Below are positions 5,508-35,287 of a stretch of 35,287 bases of DNA, piece by piece. A model generated the notes under the pieces. It was not told the origin of the DNA, ran no database searches, and saw only the letters and a program-made list of their open reading frames with translations. The DNA lies in the IMG/VR virus record IMGVR_UViG_3300025132_000013, positions 1 through 35,287 of that record; one strand, given 5' to 3'. Positions within the stretch are counted from its first letter, which is position 1. Each line of letters starts with the position of its first letter. The translations under genes and the position numbers were made by a program. The stretch comes from a virus.

Positions 5508-5774
5508 TTAACCAATATTTCTAATTTTGTTTATATTAGCTTTTGTAAGTTTGCCTTTTTCAGCAATGATACGCAGATGTCTCTCAACCTCTGGTAATAG
5601 TAATAATGATCTGTGGATATCTTCTCTAGCATTAACATCATCTATCTCTCTTGAGTTTAACCAATGAGTAATGTATTCGTTTTTAAGGTTTTCTATTGCT
5701 TCTTTAAAAACTTCTGAGGTTAATATTTGTTCTGCTTGTGCAGCTTTAACTACTTCTTCGTGTGATACTGACAT
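5508..5774 (-). CDS. Small conserved head-region protein
   Basis: This 88-residue helical protein (MSVSHEEVVKAAQAEQIL, then EVFKEAIENLKNEYITHW) contains alternating acidic and basic residues. I have seen similar short genes beside scaffold or terminase genes of marine phages, where they have no known function. Its ATG overlaps the stop of the preceding proline-rich gene by one base (TAATG), so it is probably co-translated with it. It has no membrane segment or nucleotide-binding motif. A head-assembly role is inferred from position. Confidence 0.72.
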   Translation of the reverse strand: MSVSHEEVVKAAQAEQILTSEVFKEAIENLKNEYITHWLNSREIDDVNAREDIHRSLLLLPEVERHLRIIAEKGKLTKANINKIRNIG

Positions 5775-6952
5775 TAAAATAATCCCATAGGCAATTGTTG
5801 ATTTACAGAAAATCTACCGCCAGTTGGTTGTTTAAAACCAGCAAGTTGTTCTTCTAGTTGTGCAAGTCTTGTGTCATAAGCAGATAAATCTGGTTGTTGG
5901 AAAGTTGGCATATCAATACCAGCTATAGCTTTAGATATATCATCTTGTGTTACAAATTTAGAAACATCTGGAACTTGTTGTTGTGGTATAGACATTAATA
6001 TATCTTGCTTTAAAACGCTTGGGTCAAAACTTGGTATATCTTCTAGCCTAGCAAGACCGCTTATATCAGGAATATTAATACTTCCTCTCATATCTTCCAT
6101 AAGTTCTTTTCTTAATGCTTCTTGGTCAAAAGTAGGCATTGTTGGTATATCTTCTAACCTTGCAAAACCAGATAAATCAGGTGCTTGGTATTGTGGTATA
6201 TCTTCTAGTCTAGCTAAACCAGATAAATCAGGCATTTGTGGTATATTAATGCTACCCCTCATATCTTCAATCAACTCTTTTCTCAACGCCTCTTCATCAA
6301 AAATATTGGGTGCTGGTAAATCTTCTTTAGTAATAAACTTTGATAAATCAGGTTGTTCAAAGGTTGGCATACTTTCAGCTATTCGCTCTTGTACTATTTT
6401 GTCTATAGCTTCTTGGTCAAAACCACCACCAAATAATTTACCTATGTTTAGTAAGTTGCTTAAAGGAGGAAAGTCTTGTTTTCTATCTACAGGTATATTT
6501 ACACCACCGATACCTGTTCCTAAGAAATCAACATCATCACCCCTGCGATCTATAGAACGAGGAGGTGGAGGTGGTGCTGGCATGTCTTTTGGTCTGTTTA
6601 ATTGTTCTTGTGTATAACCCATTGGTTGTTCTGGGGAATAGCTTACACCTGGTGCAATAACTTGAGACATTGGCATACCGCCAGCTATAGAACGCGCATA
6701 GTCAAAACCACTTGAATATGTTGGGTCAGACATTGGTATTGTGTAGCTACCAAAATCATCTGGACCTAATTGTGGTCCTTGTTGTTGTTGTCGTATGTCT
6801 GCAATTTGACCAAGAAAAGAACCTTTGCCTCTACCAACATTATTTAAGTTAGCTATATTAGCAGAGCCTAAACCTAAGTTACCGCCTAATAACGAACTGA
6901 TATCGCCTAATGCTGCTATATATTCCCTAGGATCTTCTGATTTTATTGCCAT
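5774..6952 (-). CDS. Repeat-rich virion-region protein with LARLEDIP units
   Basis: This 392-residue protein has a low-complexity, proline- and glutamine-rich N-terminal half. The second half repeats two blocks: F-D-x-E-A-L-R-K-E-L-x-E-D-M-R-G-S-I-N-I-P (twice) and P-D-L-S-G-L/F-A-R-L-E-D-I-P (several times). The blocks look like short amphipathic helices separated by prolines. There is no enzyme motif, signal or membrane segment. It lies between the lysis genes and the head genes and is tightly coupled to its neighbours (one-base gaps or overlaps). It may be a structural or assembly protein of the head or tail; I do not recognise a named family. Confidence 0.7.
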   Translation of the reverse strand: MAIKSEDPREYIAALGDISSLLGGNLGLGSANIANLNNVGRGKGSFLGQIADIRQQQQGPQLGPDDFGSYTIPMSDPTYSSGFDYARSIAGGMPMSQVIAPGVSYSPEQPMGYTQEQLNRPKDMPAPPPPPRSIDRRGDDVDFLGTGIGGVNIPVDRKQDFPPLSNLLNIGKLFGGGFDQEAIDKIVQERIAESMPTFEQPDLSKFITKEDLPAPNIFDEEALRKELIEDMRGSINIPQMPDLSGLARLEDIPQYQAPDLSGFARLEDIPTMPTFDQEALRKELMEDMRGSINIPDISGLARLEDIPSFDPSVLKQDILMSIPQQQVPDVSKFVTQDDISKAIAGIDMPTFQQPDLSAYDTRLAQLEEQLAGFKQPTGGRFSVNQQLPMGLF

Positions 6953-7188: not shown

Positions 7189-7560
7189 CTAATAACTCCA
7201 AATATGTGGTCTTGGTCGGCCTTGTGAATCTTTAGATATATCTAAGTGTATAAACCTAGCACCACCTTTTTGGTTAACTCCAATACCAGTAAAACCATAA
7301 TCTCTAGCTTTGGATATAATCTCTAATGCTTGCTTGCCTCTAACACCTATATCAGCTGCTAAACCAACAGCGTGTGTGCCTGGTTTTGATTTGTTTATTT
7401 CTACAGGATGTTCAGCACATCTATAACCACTTGTTATTTTAAATGGAAAACCACAATCAGTTCTAAGCGCTTGTAGTTTGTCTATAAGCTCATGCTCTAT
7501 TTTGTTTTCACCACAATGCTTACAAGCAAATTCTTCTAGTTTAAAGTTATCCCAACTCAT
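7189..7560 (-). CDS. Endolysin, zinc D,D-carboxypeptidase/endopeptidase (M15)
   Basis: This 123-residue protein is an M15_3-type peptidase that should cleave peptide cross-links of the cell wall. The core reads ITSGYRCAEHPVEIN, KPGTHAVGLAADIGVRG, then FIHLDI. His63, Asp70 and His105 are the expected zinc ligands, with Asp107 or a nearby acid in the catalytic set. A CxxC pair (CKHCG, residues 13-16) lies near the N-terminus. No signal peptide is seen, so export would depend on the neighbouring holin. Its ATG overlaps the holin stop by four bases, an arrangement typical of a holin-endolysin pair. Confidence 0.9.
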   Translation of the reverse strand: MSWDNFKLEEFACKHCGENKIEHELIDKLQALRTDCGFPFKITSGYRCAEHPVEINKSKPGTHAVGLAADIGVRGKQALEIISKARDYGFTGIGVNQKGGARFIHLDISKDSQGRPRPHIWSY

Positions 7561-7937
7561 CTAGCAACTCCTTTAGTTTTTTCAAATGTTCTAAGTCCGC
7601 CAAGTCCTAACATACCCATTAATACAGTCATTAGCGATCCCATGTCAAAGGATGGTAGTACAAAAGATATTCCAAATGCTGAGAGTGCGAAGATAATAAT
7701 AGGCTGAAGCAAAAAGTGATAAAGCAAAGCAATACCGCAAGTCCAACCCACAAATGGCCGCCAGCCGCTAACAAATATAGACTTATGGCCAGCTTCAATT
7801 TTATTAATTTCCACTTGAGCCATATTTGCTTTATGTAGTTCTGTTTTAAGTTCATGGTTTAGTTTTGCCTGTAAGTCCTTGTCAGGTACTAGCTTACTAA
7901 CTATGTCGCTTACTGGACCTATTAGCTTGTCAATCAT
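7557..7937 (-). CDS. Holin of the three-transmembrane (GTA-type) family
   Basis: This 126-residue protein has a charged amphipathic N-terminus (about 1-50) and then hydrophobic segments around residues 62-84 (a GWRPFVGWTCGIALLYHFLL-type segment) and 96-114 (GSLMTVLMGMLGLGGL). The SGWRPFVGW motif and ending LGGLRTFEK are hallmarks of the holin family found with gene-transfer-agent and phage endolysins. It should form lesions in the inner membrane that let the M15 enzyme reach the wall. Its ATG overlaps the stop of a 25-residue gene by four bases and its stop overlaps the endolysin start, making a three-gene coupled lysis cassette. Confidence 0.88.
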   Translation of the reverse strand: MIDKLIGPVSDIVSKLVPDKDLQAKLNHELKTELHKANMAQVEINKIEAGHKSIFVSGWRPFVGWTCGIALLYHFLLQPIIIFALSAFGISFVLPSFDMGSLMTVLMGMLGLGGLRTFEKTKGVAR

Positions 7938-8011
7938 TTTTTATTTTTTTTGGTTTTCTTTTTAGGTGGTCTACCTACTTTACTTCCGTATGTTCCTTTT
8001 CCTTTTGGCAT
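7934..8011 (-). CDS. Tiny basic protein (25 residues) coupled to the holin
   Basis: This 25-residue gene reads MPKGKGTYGSKVGRPP then a Lys-rich tail. It has a ribosome-binding sequence (GAGGAAAC) seven bases upstream of its ATG, and its TGA overlaps the holin ATG by four bases, so it is almost certainly translated. The first 38 bases of the pair lie inside the last codons of the cyclase gene, in another frame. I recognise the MPKGKGTYGSKVGRPP opening from other marine phages, where it is of unknown function. The GRP core with flanking Lys resembles a minimal AT-hook. Confidence 0.75.
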   Translation of the reverse strand: MPKGKGTYGSKVGRPPKKKTKKNKK

Positions 8012-9762
8012 AATGTTTCCTCGTCTATTGTATATATCGATAGTTTTTGGCTTTTGCCTTTAACACTTATCGGTTTTAATAATTTTAACTTAAATTTACA
8101 ATTTATGGCAGTAGAATAACCAATCAATATGTCTTTTCCTACTTCTTTGGTTGCTGATTCTAGTCTTGCTGCTGTATTTACACAATCACCAATAGCAGAA
8201 TAATCAAACCTAGTATCGCTCCCCATGTTGCCTATAACAGCTTCACCAGTATTAATACCTATACCTATTTCTATGCCTAGTCCTGCTTCCTTCATGTTTT
8301 TGGTTATTTCTATTGCTGTTTCTACTGCTTTGTTTCTATGATCGTCTAAATCTATGGGTGCATTAAATATAGCCATCATTGCATCACCAATATACTTATC
8401 TACCATGCCACCATATTTTTGTACTGCATCTGATTGTATAGTCAAAGCCTTGTTCATAATCTCAGTTACTTCTTCTGGAGTTAATCTTTCTGATAAAGAT
8501 GTAAAACCTCTAACATCTGTAAATAAAAATGTTGCTTCTTTTTTCTCACCACCAAGTTTTAACAAACTAGGATTGTCTTGTAATTGTTTTACTTGTCTTG
8601 GATCTAAGTAATGTTCAAACTGTTTTTTAATTTGTTGACGCAATTTATATTGCTTTTTGTAGTTAATATAGAAGGCAATAGTAGAAGTTATGATTTGTGA
8701 GATAAAAGTCCATGAAAAATCTATCAAATAACCTTTCTGAACGCTAAAAGCTTCTAAGAAGCCTGTGGTGAAGAGCAAAATTACAGCGATACTTAGACCC
8801 TTAACCACACCGAGATAATTGATTACAAGCCATGTCAACGACACGAAAATTCCAAAAATCAAAATTTCAGCCACCAATGACCATTCTGGAATCCTTGGAG
8901 AGTTTTCTATAAGAATTGACTCAGATAATGCTGCTTGAATTTTATGTGGCTCTAATAATCCAGTTGGAGTTGCAATTTGTGGCATGATTCCTGGCGCGGT
9001 AATTCCAAGAAATACAAACTTACCAGCAACATTCATTTCTTGTAAATCTGTTTGTGGTGTATCTACCCAACTAATCCACTTACGACCAAGGTTGTCTGTT
9101 TTGATCGGTGGTATTCCTCTGACTGATATTTCCTGTATTCCATTATCACTGGTTTTTATAATATAAGTTCTTGCACCTGTTAGTGCTTTTAATACTTCTG
9201 TACCAAAAGAAGAAACATAACCATCTGGTGTTTTAAGTAGTAAGGGTATTCTTCTGACTAGATTATCAACATCGGTGGGTGCAGCAGATATACCTTCTTG
9301 TATATAGTTAGTTCTAAGGTTGTGAGTATTCTGTACTACACCCTTTGCAAGCATACCACCAACATCAGGTCCTTTGATGACTGTACCAACTGTTTTTGGG
9401 TATATTTCATTTGGGTATTCAAATGAAGCCAAAATCGATGTACCATGTCTTAAGGACTCCGCAAAAAATTCATCACCACCAAATCTATCTGGATGCGGAA
9501 AACTAACAACCCAACCTACACCTAATGCACCAGCATCTATAATCTGTTTATGTATTTCACCTAGTCTTTGCCTTGGTATAGGCCAACCGCCTTCTGTATC
9601 TATATCTTCTTCGGTTATGTTAAGAATAGTAAAGTAGCCAGAAGGATCTTGTGTAGGTACAAGATAGTCAAATACTTTTAGTTTTAATGTTTCTGTTGGC
9701 GTTGACTGATATAAGACAGGCAACACTAGTATTATAAGTATGGTGAATAGTAGTCGCTTCAT
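7975..9762 (-). CDS. CHASE2-domain class III adenylate cyclase
   Basis: This 595-residue protein probably makes cAMP. An N-terminal membrane segment (about 2-19) precedes a periplasmic CHASE2 sensor (about 25-285). Further membrane helices lie near 295-317, 320-337 and 349-368, and the class III cyclase domain spans about 405-580. The two metal-binding aspartates are visible in LFTDVRGF (Asp416) and KYIGDAM (Asp460). Lys456 and Ser522 fill the base-selecting positions, the Lys agreeing with ATP use. The GDCVNTAARLE motif supplies Asn529 and Arg533. It overlaps the FecR gene by one base (TAATG). Cyclases with CHASE2 are known from bacteria and often lie beside FecR-domain genes; a phage-borne copy in the late unit is unusual. 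Activity is not shown. Confidence 0.9.
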   Translation of the reverse strand: MKRLLFTILIILVLPVLYQSTPTETLKLKVFDYLVPTQDPSGYFTILNITEEDIDTEGGWPIPRQRLGEIHKQIIDAGALGVGWVVSFPHPDRFGGDEFFAESLRHGTSILASFEYPNEIYPKTVGTVIKGPDVGGMLAKGVVQNTHNLRTNYIQEGISAAPTDVDNLVRRIPLLLKTPDGYVSSFGTEVLKALTGARTYIIKTSDNGIQEISVRGIPPIKTDNLGRKWISWVDTPQTDLQEMNVAGKFVFLGITAPGIMPQIATPTGLLEPHKIQAALSESILIENSPRIPEWSLVAEILIFGIFVSLTWLVINYLGVVKGLSIAVILLFTTGFLEAFSVQKGYLIDFSWTFISQIITSTIAFYINYKKQYKLRQQIKKQFEHYLDPRQVKQLQDNPSLLKLGGEKKEATFLFTDVRGFTSLSERLTPEEVTEIMNKALTIQSDAVQKYGGMVDKYIGDAMMAIFNAPIDLDDHRNKAVETAIEITKNMKEAGLGIEIGIGINTGEAVIGNMGSDTRFDYSAIGDCVNTAARLESATKEVGKDILIGYSTAINCKFKLKLLKPISVKGKSQKLSIYTIDEETLCQKEKEHTEVK

Positions 9763-10955
9763 TAATTACTTTGAGTGATTTTGATAGTGCTGCCAGTACC
9801 ACCATTTATTTTAATAACATTGGATGCACCATCTTGTATAAAGATAACAGTATAACTACCAGCAGAGTCTATATCTACTCTAGCTGTATCACTAACGCTA
9901 CGCATAAGTGTTAATACTTCTCCTGTTATAAAAGATGTTATTTGGGTGCCTAAGTCTTGACCTAGTTTAGTACCAACAATATTAGTAGATGTAGCATCTT
10001 GTGCTAGCTGATCTTCTTGTTGTATTTCTTGTAGTGCGTCTATGACATCTAGTAAATCTTCTAAGAAGTTTACATCAAGATAGTTTATATCTAGCTCTGT
10101 AAACTCTAGCTCTTTCTCTGAGTCTAGGAAATCTTCTTCTAAAAAGTCCTCATCTAAACCATCAAAGTCTAATATGTTTTTCTTTTTAGTTTGTGTTGTT
10201 TCTTCTGCAACTACCTCTTCTTTAGGCGGATTAACAATAAGCATGTTGTCTATAAGGTCTAGTGTTAGGTCTAAGATGACAGGTGAGCTGGGTGATTTCT
10301 CAAAGACATCTACCGTTGTAGCTTCGTAGGGTTTATTTAGTGTAACTGTACCCATGGCTGTAGTTACTAATATCTCACCACTAGAATTACCAAATTCATC
10401 TGGTAAAAGTATTAGCAAAGACCTGCCTATTTCATCTACGGTAACTGTAAAATCAGTACCACGAATTGCTATGTTTGCTGTTGGTGTCTTAAGATCTATA
10501 TTGTTTTTATCTATCTTGTTTAGACCGCCAGTAATAAATCTAGCCGTACCAAGACCAAAGGTAATGGCCATTTTAGATTTGCTGGGGTTGGGGTCAAAGA
10601 TGTATTCATCTATGGTGAGCTGTGAGTTTTCTGTAAGTCTTACTTTGGAGTCGTCTAGGAACGTAATAGCCATACGACCATTAGTCGTAACTGCTTCATC
10701 ATTTTGTTGTATATCAAAAGACTCTGTTGCCTTATAAGGCTTGTCTCTTAGTATTTGTGCTGAACCGTTTAGTTCAGATATGTTTCCTATATCAACAGCT
10801 TGTGCTTGTTCCGCCATCGTTCTGAACGACACAAATAGTACCGTTAGAACCAGTAGAGTTAATCTGTAGCCAATCAGAAGCAAGAGTTGACGACTGTATG
10901 ATATTGAATGTTCTGCTGTTTCCTGTTTGGTCAAGATAGAAATATCCACCTGCAT
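9762..10955 (-). CDS. FecR-domain periplasmic protein
   Basis: This 397-residue protein has an N-terminal hydrophobic stretch (about residues 23-44) serving as signal or anchor. The FecR domain spans about residues 55-175, with the clear TPTANIAIRGTDFTV signature. A very acidic region (about 262-318, repeated Asp-Phe-Leu) and a short C-terminal strand-rich part follow. FecR domains in other bacteria relay periplasmic signals; this type commonly precedes CHASE2-cyclase genes. The first 164 bases overlap the end of the curlin-like gene in another frame, and that overlap encodes the signal segment. A start at Met47 (10817) would avoid most of it but would lose the signal. The gene is coupled to the cyclase by TAATG. 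Confidence 0.82.
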   Translation of the reverse strand: MQVDISILTKQETAEHSISYSRQLLLLIGYRLTLLVLTVLFVSFRTMAEQAQAVDIGNISELNGSAQILRDKPYKATESFDIQQNDEAVTTNGRMAITFLDDSKVRLTENSQLTIDEYIFDPNPSKSKMAITFGLGTARFITGGLNKIDKNNIDLKTPTANIAIRGTDFTVTVDEIGRSLLILLPDEFGNSSGEILVTTAMGTVTLNKPYEATTVDVFEKSPSSPVILDLTLDLIDNMLIVNPPKEEVVAEETTQTKKKNILDFDGLDEDFLEEDFLDSEKELEFTELDINYLDVNFLEDLLDVIDALQEIQQEDQLAQDATSTNIVGTKLGQDLGTQITSFITGEVLTLMRSVSDTARVDIDSAGSYTVIFIQDGASNVIKINGGTGSTIKITQSN

Positions 10956-11526
10956 ATCCGCTTCCTGTAAAGTTTACTGTATTGCTATCACCGTCTACAT
11001 CCACATAGCTAGTAGCACCATCATAGTTTATATCAAAATCAAACGTGTTTCCGTCTCCGTTAATTATCCAATCTAAATCAAGACCAGAAGCTAATGCTGT
11101 TGTACCTGTGTCTAGTGTAAATGTATTAGAACTACCAGTTACATCTACATTGTAGTCTGAGTTATCAATACCATAAGTATTTGTAGGATCAGCTTGTATA
11201 GTAAAGGTATTACTATCTCCATCAAACTCAAACAATCCTGTTACGCTATCTCCGTATATATCACCTAAAAATTTATTAGTATTACCTATTTGGTTTATAT
11301 CTAAGGTTAGATTAATGCCATCAAGATCAAATGCTGTTAGCGTTCCAGCAACAGAGTTTAAACCACCAATAATGTTAGATGATCCTAACTGTTCTAAGTC
11401 TATGTTTGCTGTGTTACCGCTTTGGTCAACATATATTTCATTGTCAGCTGCATACGCAGATAAACCAGCAAGGGTTAATCCCAATATGCTGTAGTAACTT
11501 ATTATTCCTAAATCATTCTTGCTCAT
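10792..11526 (-). CDS. Curlin-repeat secreted protein (candidate amyloid subunit)
   Basis: This 244-residue protein has a signal peptide (about residues 1-26, ending SAYA) and then many short repeats with the curlin-like pattern of Gln or Asp, Gly, any residue, Asn, and alternating strand residues. Examples are VDQSGNTANIDLEQLGSSN, DINQIGNTNKF, FDGDSNTFTIQ, VTGSSNTFTL and LDQTGNSRTFNI. Two cysteines lie near the C-terminus (TICVVQ and the final residue). It has no lipobox. It directly follows the CsgG-like pore gene, and curlin repeats (as in CsgA and CsgB) are the substrates of that pore. The TTG three bases upstream could also start; I chose ATG. Amyloid formation is inferred from pattern and context only. 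Confidence 0.82.
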   Translation of the reverse strand: MSKNDLGIISYYSILGLTLAGLSAYAADNEIYVDQSGNTANIDLEQLGSSNIIGGLNSVAGTLTAFDLDGINLTLDINQIGNTNKFLGDIYGDSVTGLFEFDGDSNTFTIQADPTNTYGIDNSDYNVDVTGSSNTFTLDTGTTALASGLDLDWIINGDGNTFDFDINYDGATSYVDVDGDSNTVNFTGSGYAGGYFYLDQTGNSRTFNIIQSSTLASDWLQINSTGSNGTICVVQNDGGTSTSC

Positions 11527-12334
11527 CAATATTCCAATATCCTCTGGTTGTTCCTTCTTTAATTGTTTCTAAAACAGCGGTTTCTATTGCTGTTTGTAGT
11601 GCTATATTGATTGACTCGTTCCTGACTAAACCGTTTTCTATTTCCACTAGTTCGGTATTGTCAGTAATAAAACGAAATATATCTTGATCGATAGATGCAC
11701 TTAATATCGTTTTAGTTACTAATACTTCTAGTAACACCCTACCTGTACTTACAGATACAGTTCGTAAAGATATGGTTACGGTGTCTTGCTTGTATTGCCT
11801 AGACATTCCAATGCCTAAATACCTAGCGCCTGCACCCCCAGACTTTACATTACTTTCGTATGATATCACGCCACCTTGCATTATCAAACCAGCAAACAAT
11901 AAATCTGGTAACTTCTGCTTTTCTTTGTTTTGTTGCCTGGCGCTCCTAATGATTTGTCGCTCTTTGGTTACATTGTCTAAACCAACACGCTCAACCACAT
12001 CAAAGAAGCCATTATTACTACTGCCTGCGTGTTTTAAGGCTCTAATCAGGTAGGCATCTGGTGCCTGCGTTACCGCAGATGAAAAGGTTGCATAAGCACT
12101 ATTGCTTCTTCTTTGTCCTGTTTGGTCTGTAAAAGAACCTTGATATATAGCTACGACTGGCTTTACTTTGTTGTTTGATTTTATGTTTGCAAGTTCAGGT
12201 ACAAGCAACGAGCCTATCGTTGGCTTTTCTATTTTTTGAATTGGAGGTAGATTATTTTCTAACGGATCTATTATTAACGCGCAACTAGAAAGTAAAGCTA
12301 CCGATAGGAAGAGATATAGTTGTCGTATTACCAT
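11513..12334 (-). CDS. csgG: CsgG-like curli secretion pore lipoprotein
   Basis: This 273-residue protein, near the usual CsgG length, begins with a lipoprotein signal (LLSSC, lipidated Cys18). It contains the CsgG hallmark run YESNVKSGGAGARYLGIG, then RQYKQDTVTISLRTVSVSTG. A TKTILSASIDQDIFRFI region and AIETAV near the end also match E. coli CsgG from memory. In that family nine subunits build an outer-membrane channel that exports curli subunits. It overlaps the CsgF-like gene by 50 bases and the curlin-like gene by 14, so the three are tightly co-translated. CsgE, the usual adaptor, is not present in this window. Confidence 0.93.
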   Translation of the reverse strand: MVIRQLYLFLSVALLSSCALIIDPLENNLPPIQKIEKPTIGSLLVPELANIKSNNKVKPVVAIYQGSFTDQTGQRRSNSAYATFSSAVTQAPDAYLIRALKHAGSSNNGFFDVVERVGLDNVTKERQIIRSARQQNKEKQKLPDLLFAGLIMQGGVISYESNVKSGGAGARYLGIGMSRQYKQDTVTISLRTVSVSTGRVLLEVLVTKTILSASIDQDIFRFITDNTELVEIENGLVRNESINIALQTAIETAVLETIKEGTTRGYWNIDEQE

Positions 12335-12809
12335 CTGAGTCAGTTATGTTTAAAGTTATAATTCCGTCTACAACATTATACTCTATAGTATTTCCTTCTA
12401 AACTTAAAACACCACTATCACTTGGAGTTTCACCAAATAAATTTTCTACAAGCTGTCTTGATAGTTGTGCATAGATTCTTGACTCTAGGTTTCTTATAAA
12501 TCTTGCAAGAGTAGTGTTTTCTTTATCTCTTTCTATCTCTTCTTGTAATGCTTTTATTTCTGCTTTAAGCGCTTGCTTCCGATTGAACTGTTGGTTCTCT
12601 ATGGTTAGATAATGTGCAGATGTGCCTACACCAGAGAATGATGGCGACTTAAACTTATGTACCATCTCGTCTGCATTTAAGCTTTGACCAATAACCATTA
12701 AAAACATTATTGCACCCATAAAACAACACCATATAGCTATTCTAGTTTTAGCAGCTTCTTCTTGTTCTATTTCTCTTCTTGTAAGTTTTCTTTTATACAC
12801 ACTTGCCAT
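12285..12809 (-). CDS. csgF: CsgF-like curli assembly protein
   Basis: This 174-residue protein carries the CsgF pattern. After a hydrophobic signal (about residues 28-46) it starts its mature part HKFKSPSFSGVGTSAHYL, with ENQQ, and continues to FIRNLESRIYAQLSRQLV. It ends in strand-rich NVVDGIITLNITDSDGN and TTTISLPIGSF. In E. coli CsgF (about 138 residues) plugs and extends the CsgG channel and localises curli nucleation. This one is longer because it has a charged N-terminal extension (about residues 1-25) before the signal; Met31 is a possible shorter start. The ATG overlaps the stop of the upstream membrane-protein gene by one base (TAATG). Confidence 0.88.
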   Translation of the reverse strand: MASVYKRKLTRREIEQEEAAKTRIAIWCCFMGAIMFLMVIGQSLNADEMVHKFKSPSFSGVGTSAHYLTIENQQFNRKQALKAEIKALQEEIERDKENTTLARFIRNLESRIYAQLSRQLVENLFGETPSDSGVLSLEGNTIEYNVVDGIITLNITDSDGNTTTISLPIGSFTF

Positions 12810-13159
12810 TAGTCCTTCCTTTTATCTTTTCTTCCTGCTTTGGCAATCTTGTTAGTGTCAATTAACTGAGGTACGCCTAGCATTGTTTTAATCATAGTAT
12901 CTTGTCTAATGATTTCATTATCCAAAGATCTAACTCTATCTATTAATGCTACTAGAATACCGTGTTGTGTGTCTAGTTTTGTGCCAAGGCGATCTTCCAT
13001 GGCATTTATGGATGTGTTGACTTTATCATCTACGGTATCAAGTTTAGTCTCCATACCATCAATAATTCTGTTGATAAGCTTCCAAACAAAAGCACCAAGG
13101 CCTAGCGCTGCGGCAATAGGAAATCCTAGTTCGGTTATAAGAACTACGACATCATTCAT
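12809..13159 (-). CDS. Small membrane/coiled-coil protein, possible BhlA-type holin
   Basis: This 116-residue protein has an N-terminal hydrophobic helix (about residues 3-28, with VVVLITELGFPIAAALGLG) and then a long coiled coil (KLDTVDDKVNTSINAMEDRL). It ends in a Lys-rich tail (KAGRKDKRKD). An N-terminal transmembrane helix with a coiled-coil rod is the form of BhlA/UviB-type holins and of some phage membrane rods. It is the first of the genes overlapping into the csgF-csgG module. It could be a second holin, or a membrane anchor used by that module. Family assignment is tentative. Confidence 0.65.
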   Translation of the reverse strand: MNDVVVLITELGFPIAAALGLGAFVWKLINRIIDGMETKLDTVDDKVNTSINAMEDRLGTKLDTQHGILVALIDRVRSLDNEIIRQDTMIKTMLGVPQLIDTNKIAKAGRKDKRKD

Positions 13160-13162
13160 GGT

Positions 13163-13306
13163 TTACTTTTTCTTTTTAGTTGTTTTTTTCTTTTTAGGAA
13201 ATCCAGCTTTCATAGCTTTGTAAGCCTTTGCTGAAATAGTAGATTTTTTTTTGCTTCTGCTTGTTCCAGCTTTTTTTCTTTTATTTATGTTTTCATATAA
13301 TGACAT
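13163..13306 (-). CDS. Tiny basic conserved marine-phage protein (47 residues)
   Basis: This 47-residue protein reads MSLYENINKRKKAGTSRSKK, then STISAKAYKAMKAGF and a lysine-rich end. I recognise the MSLYENINxRKKAGTSR opening from many marine phage genomes, usually next to terminase or portal genes and without known function. The ATG has a clear AAGGAG sequence nine bases upstream. It ends three bases before the coiled-coil membrane protein's start. The repeated K and an S-x-x-A-Y-x-x-M core suggest nucleic-acid or capsid binding, but this is inference. Confidence 0.82.
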   Translation of the reverse strand: MSLYENINKRKKAGTSRSKKKSTISAKAYKAMKAGFPKKKKTTKKKK

Positions 13307-13316
13307 AGTTATCTCC

Positions 13317-13574
13317 TTATTTTCTTCTTGATTTAGCTCCAGAACATTTCCATCTTTTTCTTGATAGGTTGTTTGGAGTATTGGGATCGTTTTGTTTTTT
13401 CTTAGATAATCTTTTCTTTATACCAAGACTTCTAGCGCAATATGAATCACCTTTAGATGTTCCTGGCTTAACTCTAGGGCCACCACCTTTGGCTTTACCT
13501 GCTTGACCGTAACTAACCTTTTTACCAGATTTAGTTATCTTTACTTTTGCTTTGCCTCTTCTTGGTGTTGCCAT
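13317..13574 (-). CDS. Small basic protein with GDSYCARS/RKRWKC motifs
   Basis: This 85-residue, strongly basic protein begins MATPRRGKAKVKITKSGKKV and has a conserved GDSYCARSLGI segment, then NDPNTPNNLSRKRWKCSG. The two cysteine motifs and flanking Gly/Lys-rich strands look like a small nucleic-acid or metal-binding domain. I recognise it as a recurring phage protein of unknown function. It overlaps the 42-residue upstream gene by one base (TAATG) and is separated by ten bases from the next tiny gene. Confidence 0.78.
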   Translation of the reverse strand: MATPRRGKAKVKITKSGKKVSYGQAGKAKGGGPRVKPGTSKGDSYCARSLGIKKRLSKKKQNDPNTPNNLSRKRWKCSGAKSRRK

Positions 13575-13702
13575 TATTTCTTCTTCCTTGGTCTACCTCT
13601 TTTTTTAACAACTGGTGCTGGTGTCATAAGATTGTCAAACCAGTTTAAAAATTTATGTATGGTTGCTTTTAACCATACCCATGCTTTAGTAATATATTTC
13701 AT
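13574..13702 (-). CDS. Tiny protein with AT-hook-like tail (42 residues)
   Basis: This 42-residue gene encodes MKYITKAWVWLKATIHKFLN, then WFDNLMTPAPVVKKRGRPRKKK. The first part is an aromatic-rich amphipathic helix; the end is a canonical AT-hook core (RGRP flanked by Lys/Arg). Both ends are coupled by single-base TAATG overlaps, to the upstream 58-residue gene and the downstream 85-residue gene, so translation is very likely. AT-hooks bind the minor groove of AT-rich DNA, which would suit this genome. Function is not known. Confidence 0.72.
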   Translation of the reverse strand: MKYITKAWVWLKATIHKFLNWFDNLMTPAPVVKKRGRPRKKK

Positions 13703-34384: not shown

Positions 34385-35287
34385 TTATTCTCCTTTTAAT
34401 AAGTTAATTTCAGATTGTAAGGCTTCAATCTGTTCTTGTTGTTCTTTCATTCCTTTTACAAGATGTACTACAAGTTTACTGTAATCCATTTGATACATTT
34501 CTTCTTCAGAACCTGATACAGCGTTAGGCACTATGTCTAACACTTCTTGAGCTATTAAACCTTCGTCTGCTTGTCCATCTGCTTTCCAGTTGTAAGCTAC
34601 TGGGTTAAGTTCATTGATGACTTCTAAACCTCTAGCTTCGCCTGTAATATCTTTGAGTCTTGCATCTGAAGATGTGTTAAAAGATGTTGTTGAACCATTA
34701 GTTGTTATAGAACCAACTGTTGAGCCATTTCTTTGAAAGGCTGCAAAAGTATTTGTACCTGTTGGTGTATTTATATTTAATCCTGTTTGTCCAGAATTGT
34801 ATAAAGATAACAAACCTGAAGAAGTTGTAGTTCCCACCAACAAGTTGCCTGAAGAATCAATACGCATGACCTCACTTCCACCAACATCTATTTCATAGCT
34901 GAAACCAGAAGCAACATTCATACCCATTGAACCATTAGAATTAAGTTTTACTGAGCTACCACCAAGTGCTTCTACTGATAAGTGTCCAGCACTTGTTTTG
35001 AATGTAGTATTACCTGAAGAATCAATACGCATTCTTTCTGTACCATCCGATGAAGCATCACGCCCATCATATATAGCAAATGCGTTTGTATTAGGAACTT
35101 GTCCTATTGCCCAATTACCAACACCAGCTTGGGTAAATAATAATTGAGAACCTGAACGAGGAGAACCTCCATAGTTATAAATTTGTTGAAAAATTCCTCT
35201 GCTAGGATTATCTCCAGCAACTTGTAATTTATAGCCGCCTGATGAAGAAATACCCATTAAAACGTCACCTGAAGAATCAATACGCAT
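34385..35287 (-). CDS. Tail fibre, C-terminal part with S74 intramolecular chaperone
   Basis: This is the other end of the tail-fibre gene split by the window edge; the apparent start at 35287 is internal. The last ~95 residues form a Peptidase_S74 (intramolecular chaperone) domain. The signature SDARLKD places the Ser and Lys of the self-cleavage dyad five residues apart (about residues 639 and 644 of the full protein). It is followed by a NELNPVAYNW segment, a GLIAQEV segment and a terminal coiled coil (KEQQEQIEALQSEINLL). In this family the domain helps trimerise the fibre and then cuts itself off. Upstream are MRIDSSG repeats shared with the N-terminal part. The family assignment is strong; what the fibre binds cannot be read from the sequence. 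Confidence 0.88.
   Translation of the reverse strand: MRIDSSGDVLMGISSSGGYKLQVAGDNPSRGIFQQIYNYGGSPRSGSQLLFTQAGVGNWAIGQVPNTNAFAIYDGRDASSDGTERMRIDSSGNTTFKTSAGHLSVEALGGSSVKLNSNGSMGMNVASGFSYEIDVGGSEVMRIDSSGNLLVGTTTSSGLLSLYNSGQTGLNINTPTGTNTFAAFQRNGSTVGSITTNGSTTSFNTSSDARLKDITGEARGLEVINELNPVAYNWKADGQADEGLIAQEVLDIVPNAVSGSEEEMYQMDYSKLVVHLVKGMKEQQEQIEALQSEINLLKGE
35189..35287. repeat. Right copy of 99-base terminal duplication
   Basis: This is the second copy of the 99-base end repeat, matching 1-99. Its position in the middle of a coding sequence argues against a genuine T7-like terminal redundancy, which usually lies between genes. Confidence 0.93.

Follow-up and report, generated by a model that had tools for sequence, protein, structure and literature searches.

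Curli-type gene sets in phages and bacteria

The curli gene cluster of marine phages was first reported in 2020, in pelagimyophages (PMC7029224). A later survey (mSystems 2022; PMC9599517) described CsgF, CsgG, CsgA/B, FecR, often a second CsgA/B, and adenylate cyclase in pelagipodophages and pelagimyophages; it also reported that the set has been transferred between viral families, occurs at every one of the 65 GOV2.0 stations and is expressed in Pacific metatranscriptomes. HTVC008M gp14-19 and Melnitz gp99-104 are annotated as this set, and CsgG and CsgF of Melnitz have been modelled (PMC9004378, 2022). In bacteria, clusters of FecR with a CHASE2 adenylate cyclase are known from Campylobacterota (PMC9239204) and, as the pair cyaD1/SMc02177 (PMC5498481), from S. 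meliloti, where CyaD1 deprived of CHASE2 produces cAMP constitutively; the initial annotation of the present locus had likewise held that FecR and CHASE2 often occur together.

The locus analyzed here lies in a viral stretch of 35,287 nucleotides, hereafter the window. It carries the same genes in the same order as the T8SS set of HTVC008M and HTVC023P-type phages, down to a short gene upstream, and HTVC008M proteins are 27-43% identical to its own; it differs from the HTVC023P-type and pelagimyophage sets in its carrier, a 35-kb podophage with an SU10-type portal, and in that the cyclase follows FecR directly, where those sets often have another curlin gene. The Melnitz operon (CsgF-CsgG-curlin-FecR-curlin-cyclase; PMC9004378) is similar save for that extra curlin gene, but it resides in a T4-like myophage and two catalytic residues of its cyclase are replaced. 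With E. coli csgBAC/csgDEFG the window shares the CsgG and CsgF families and curlin-type repeats; unlike the bacterial operon, it has no CsgE that we could find, and FecR and cyclase genes are joined to the set. The Campylobacterota and S. meliloti cyaD1 clusters likewise place a FecR-domain gene beside a CHASE2 class III cyclase, whereas the phage pair adjoins a curli export line and its FecR has a curlin-like tail. Judged by its gene families, the phage set is a bacterial curli export line joined to a bacterial FecR-CHASE2 pair.

The initial annotation had raised the possibility that the whole set of five genes was new, unless the same order proved common and already described in related phages. 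Both turned out to be so: HTVC008M, Melnitz and HTVC023P-type podophages carry it, and PMC9599517 describes it with FecR and cyclase included. The window is a further carrier of a known system, not a new system, and some GOV2.0 podophage contigs counted in that survey may belong to its lineage. Our additions concern the carrier lineage, the slot, mobility between phage backbones, doubt about a published kinase partner, and the FecR tail. We think it somewhat probable that a curlin-like protein is exported late through CsgG/CsgF to form a surface fiber or coat, and that FecR and the CHASE2 cyclase report on export or on the condition of the envelope through cAMP.

Cassette layout and gene families

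The five adjacent genes csgF-csgG-curlin-FecR-CHASE2 cyclase occupy 7975-12809 on the minus strand, just as first called, each open reading frame touching or overlapping the next (Table 1). As it is uncertain where FecR starts, its overlap of 164 nt with the curlin gene could prove shorter. Profile searches bear out the assignments to CsgF, CsgG, FecR, CHASE2 and class III cyclase, with all matches above the Pfam cut-offs, and every cassette gene except the curlin gene also matches a PHROG, a family built from phage proteins. As had been proposed, the cassette sits inside a phage late unit, flanked at one end by terminase and portal and at the other by the bounding lysis genes, holin and endolysin (7189-7937); all these genes share one strand. 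All five genes are under purifying selection, with median pairwise dN/dS values against the window between 0.11 and 0.20 (CsgF 0.17, CsgG 0.11, curlin 0.15, FecR 0.11, cyclase 0.20); the value for the short upstream gene, not itself counted as a curli gene, is 0.06.

Table 1. Genes of the curli-type cassette and its immediate neighbors in the window
Feature	Position	Strand	Product	Profile evidence
CsgF-like protein	12285-12809	-	174 aa	Pfam PF10614, 8.8e-18; PHROG 35372, 2.6e-44
CsgG-like outer-membrane lipoprotein pore subunit	11513-12334	-	273 aa, lipobox LSSC	Pfam PF03783, 1.7e-47
Curlin-like repeat protein	10792-11529	-	245 aa	PF07012, 15.3 bits; motif excess
FecR-domain protein	9762-10955	-	397 aa, start uncertain	Pfam PF04773, 2.2e-10
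CHASE2 class III nucleotide cyclase	7975-9762	-	595 aa	PF05226, 6.1e-26; PF00211 (Guanylate_cyc), 1.3e-20
Short hydrophobic and coiled-coil protein	12809-13159	-	116 aa	PHROG 18771
Holin	7557-7937	-	3-TM	Pfam PF11351, 3.1e-17; PHROG holin
M15 endolysin	7189-7560	-		Pfam PF08291, 9.7e-14; PHROG endolysin

CsgE (PF10627) was reported missing at the outset, and a profile search of the window that did recover the E. coli control gave no match. Since CsgE is also missing from the published viral sets and from the alphaproteobacterial modules that they resemble (PMC9599517), it is not a strict criterion for curli or type VIII secretion.

The export pair itself is clear. The CsgG family profile matches the solved CsgG structures 3x2r and 4uv3 at about 1e-60. 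The CsgF-like protein, for which a PDB sequence search returned no match, has an N-terminal hydrophobic segment (residues 24-42) followed by the peptide DEMVHKFKSPSFSG, which corresponds to SEIVHEFKNPAFSG in HTVC008M. The corresponding peptide of CsgF binds inside the CsgG barrel. We know of no use for a CsgG/CsgF pair except curli-type export.

The curlin assignment is the weakest of the five. Curlin_rpt (PF07012) finds a single match that falls short of the cut-off (20.7 bits), and the AF2 model of the protein is beta-rich (pLDDT 61) with no significant fold match in the PDB. What speaks for the call is the excess of G-x-(x)-N-(x)-hydrophobic motifs (11, against 3.0 in shuffles, with 1 of 5000 shuffles as high), in a protein with about 7-10 G-x-x-N repeats, and its homology to the curlin genes at the same position in HTVC008M (30% identity) and Melnitz (27%); the longer second curlin genes of these two phages do exceed the Curlin_rpt cut-off. 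A Sec-type signal peptide, judged by eye, would be cleaved at SAYA|ADN. In HTVC008M, gp18 (L079 10558-11883), annotated as hypothetical, has curlin repeats after a PA14 domain, each above its Pfam cut-off, and is a possible glycan-binding fiber subunit.

The short gene upstream encodes a hydrophobic segment (residues 4-29) plus a coiled coil, and it precedes csgF in every retrieved locus whose contig reaches there. It is probably the gene named histidine kinase in PMC9599517, a match made by position alone. Pfam finds no kinase domain in it or in its HTVC008M homolog, and the published partner deserves re-examination. Three cassette-free phages (L243, L251 and L255) have a gene 66% identical to it; in L243, where the entire slot was read, this gene occupies 13302-13652, directly before the holin.

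Carrier phage, slot and mobility

An exact 99-base direct terminal repeat (positions 1-99 and 35189-35287) makes it probable that the window was assembled as a complete circle of about 35.19 kb. The carrier, which encodes an SU10-type portal, a terminase, a scaffold and a major head protein, is a near-complete podophage of about 35.2 kb. Its nearest database phages, judged by portal or capsid, are Pelagibacter phage HTVC106P, Methylophilales phage Venkman, Sinorhizobium phage phiM5, Microcystis phage MJing1 and uncultured spring phages, with no identity exceeding 52%. Compared with the first 50 kb of the HTVC023P-type phage 023Pt_psg01 (59.8 kb), a span that includes its terminase, head-tail connector and head genes, the window matched only weakly, in one tail protein and one small basic protein, and had no match for terminase, portal or capsid. 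The carrier is not of the HTVC023P type, and its lineage is distinct from the 59-kb representative tested. A tRNA search gave no hint of the host. After the endolysin lies a gene for 392 residues (5774-6952, minus strand) that has no PHROG or Pfam family; its identity among relatives ranges from 35 to 99%, with neighbors such as lysin and scaffold mostly far better conserved, and it marks a hypervariable slot.

Sister loci of the window backbone were retrieved with portal and holin queries and are not all independent. In 14 of them the cassette lies between portal and holin, which are 5.4-7.4 kb apart, whereas at least 36 have no cassette there and a spacing of 0.3-3.2 kb; the cassette-free slot holds small basic proteins and often also a RusA-like resolvase. 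In this backbone the cassette has a fixed slot, from the portal end to the holin. Among the cassette-free sisters are contigs with portals 92-95% identical to that of the window, and the closest of them have a holin of another type (42-45% identity) together with an endolysin that is 82-87% identical. Because the holin type differs as well, cassette and holin may have been exchanged together, although hitch-hiking is the simpler reading.

This neighborhood lends some appeal to the idea that CsgG and CsgF would act as an outer-membrane pinholin or disruptor, a pore that times lysis or permeabilizes the envelope while the other genes tune it. The cassette directly adjoins holin and endolysin, the holin change in otherwise close sisters with a retained endolysin would fit, and the Melnitz authors favor a lysis-related role (PMC9004378). 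We nevertheless regard this as unlikely: in HTVC008M and Melnitz the neighbors of the set are replication or tail genes instead of lysis genes, the many cassette-free sisters manage without it, a conserved secreted repeat protein would be left unexplained, and the holin linkage may reflect recombination hitch-hiking. A rule that the cassette is always found beside a holin was dropped, as the holin-like 161-residue gene that follows the cyclase in a second backbone matches only PHROGs that have no assigned function.

That second backbone came to light among 77 viral loci retrieved with CsgG as query, which we considered together with HTVC008M and Melnitz. As far as the contigs reach, all of them preserve the order short gene-CsgF-CsgG-curlin-FecR-cyclase. 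The loci fall on two backbones. One is the window type, running from portal through cassette and holin to endolysin; the other, on contigs of up to 52 kb, has neither the window portal nor an HTVC023P-type terminase; the terminase query had a positive control and replaced a DNA polymerase query that had none. On the CsgG tree the backbone label switches three times, with two of the switches forced by well-supported branches, which indicates that the cassette has been transferred from one podophage backbone to another, unrelated one. The view that the five genes form one functional set holds, given the preserved order and the purifying selection; its fiber and signaling content is what we infer.

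Two further records stand apart. The L072 contig (34870 bp) has a cassette 98-99% identical to that of the window, the cyclase excepted (81%), and a portal gene that matches as four fragments separated by stops, from sequencing error or decay. The unannotated OR851715.1 (Salmonella phage S.Kent 1-2-1, 1499 bp) matches CsgG at 38.6% and may be host DNA that was submitted under a phage name.

Neither 289 alphaproteobacterial genomes, nor four csgFG loci, nor a scan of genome contigs yielded a bacterial ancestor for the complete set. CsgF exceeded the cut-off in 4 of the 289 genomes, and three intact alphaproteobacterial csgFG loci plus one gammaproteobacterial locus showed no FecR or cyclase within stretches of 18-20 kb. 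The CsgG scan turned up mostly apparent phage contigs binned into MAGs, which were set aside as evidence for five-gene operons in bacteria; L082, L083, L084, L085, L086 and L104, labeled Maricaulis, Rhodobacteraceae, Flavobacteriaceae or Pelagibacter, have the phage-type cassette and look like such contigs.

The FecR-cyclase pair

The cyclase is of the receptor type, with one N-terminal TM segment, a periplasmic CHASE2 domain, a hydrophobic stretch (residues 291-341) that probably comprises several TM segments, and a cytoplasmic cyclase domain. It matches solved cyclases, all six canonical catalytic residues are present (D416, K456, D460, D520, N529 and R533), and its Lys/Asp pattern is that of adenylate cyclases. 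The six are intact in 68 of 71 phage cyclases. Because two of them are replaced in Melnitz and two relatives, cyclase output may not be required in every carrier.

The FecR-domain protein has a single N-terminal hydrophobic segment, and its last 45 residues resemble curlin. Cassette FecRs are about 35-38% identical between lineages, yet their C-terminal ends are alike, made of two short strands that are each closed by Gln (YTVIFIQDG...STIKITQSN in the window, YVLNVIQGE...NAITINQTN in HTVC008M). Scored against a phage curlin profile, these 45 residues surpassed all 200 shuffles in 6 of 12 FecRs, and at most 4 of 200 shuffles scored as high in 10 of the 12, with none doing so for the window; since the scores are low (3-13 bits), the 12 sequences related and the shuffles preserve composition only, the likeness suggests a lead with modest support. 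An AlphaFold model of FecR built with 27 close relatives (pLDDT 32) was unusable for judging the tail.

Such a tail suggests that FecR is a sensor of the exported fiber. One could go further and posit that it reads curlin in the periplasm or at the pore by like-with-like stacking and thereby switches the CHASE2 cyclase, an amyloid export-cAMP feedback circuit that none of the papers we found describes for any curli system. We consider this rather unlikely; if true, FecR would itself be a partner of the exported fiber and would close a feedback loop between export and cAMP.

FecR also invites comparison with iron-citrate sensing, and with no CsgE gate in the window an ungated CsgG might admit solutes such as siderophores while FecR and the cyclase sense their uptake, an idea raised in PMC9599517. 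A profile search of the window found no sigma-70 region 2, however, and because there is no sigma factor the FecR protein is not part of a Fec-type circuit (FecIRA iron-citrate signaling); no TonB receptor or plug was seen among the scanned genes either, and the curlin gene would be superfluous, which together make uptake very unlikely. It is similarly improbable that the pair acts chiefly on host physiology, with cAMP altering metabolism or defense and the curli genes only a signal source: most relatives have intact cyclase residues and FecR-CHASE2 pairs are stand-alone signaling units in bacteria, but some relatives have substituted residues and the pair never occurs without csgFG in the retrieved loci, a weak argument given that csgG was the query.

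A model for the viral cassette

We posit that surface export coupled to sensing best accounts for the locus: the mobile cassette would equip the infected cell with a curli-type (type VIII) export line that works without CsgE, and with a means of sensing it. Its genes would be made late, together with those for packaging and lysis. CsgG lipoproteins would assemble into an outer-membrane pore capped by CsgF, and the curlin-like protein, having crossed the inner membrane through Sec, would pass the pore to form an amyloid-like coat or fiber on the cell surface. Periplasmic FecR, presumably in contact with the CHASE2 domain of the cyclase, would report on export or on the condition of the outer envelope, whereupon the cyclase would make cAMP in the cytoplasm. 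The phage would likely profit because sibling hosts aggregate, or because the infected cell is shielded from other phages. We read the exported product as a fiber because CsgG and CsgF are clear and an adjacent substrate gene with curlin-type repeats is always present; the sub-threshold curlin score and the lack of a solved fold like the curlin model count against it. Signaling is included because FecR-CHASE2 pairs are known in bacteria and the FecR tails are curlin-like, while the replaced residues of the Melnitz-type relatives argue against cyclase signaling in every carrier.

At least three unrelated marine phage lineages keep this five-gene cassette for surface export and signaling, and since it takes up about 5 kb, or 14%, of a 35-kb genome, it must pay for its place. 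The curlin-like FecR tail offers a testable connection between fiber export and the cyclase. With its small genome, a defined slot and many cassette-free sisters, the lineage described here is the simplest in which to test what curli do for a virus.
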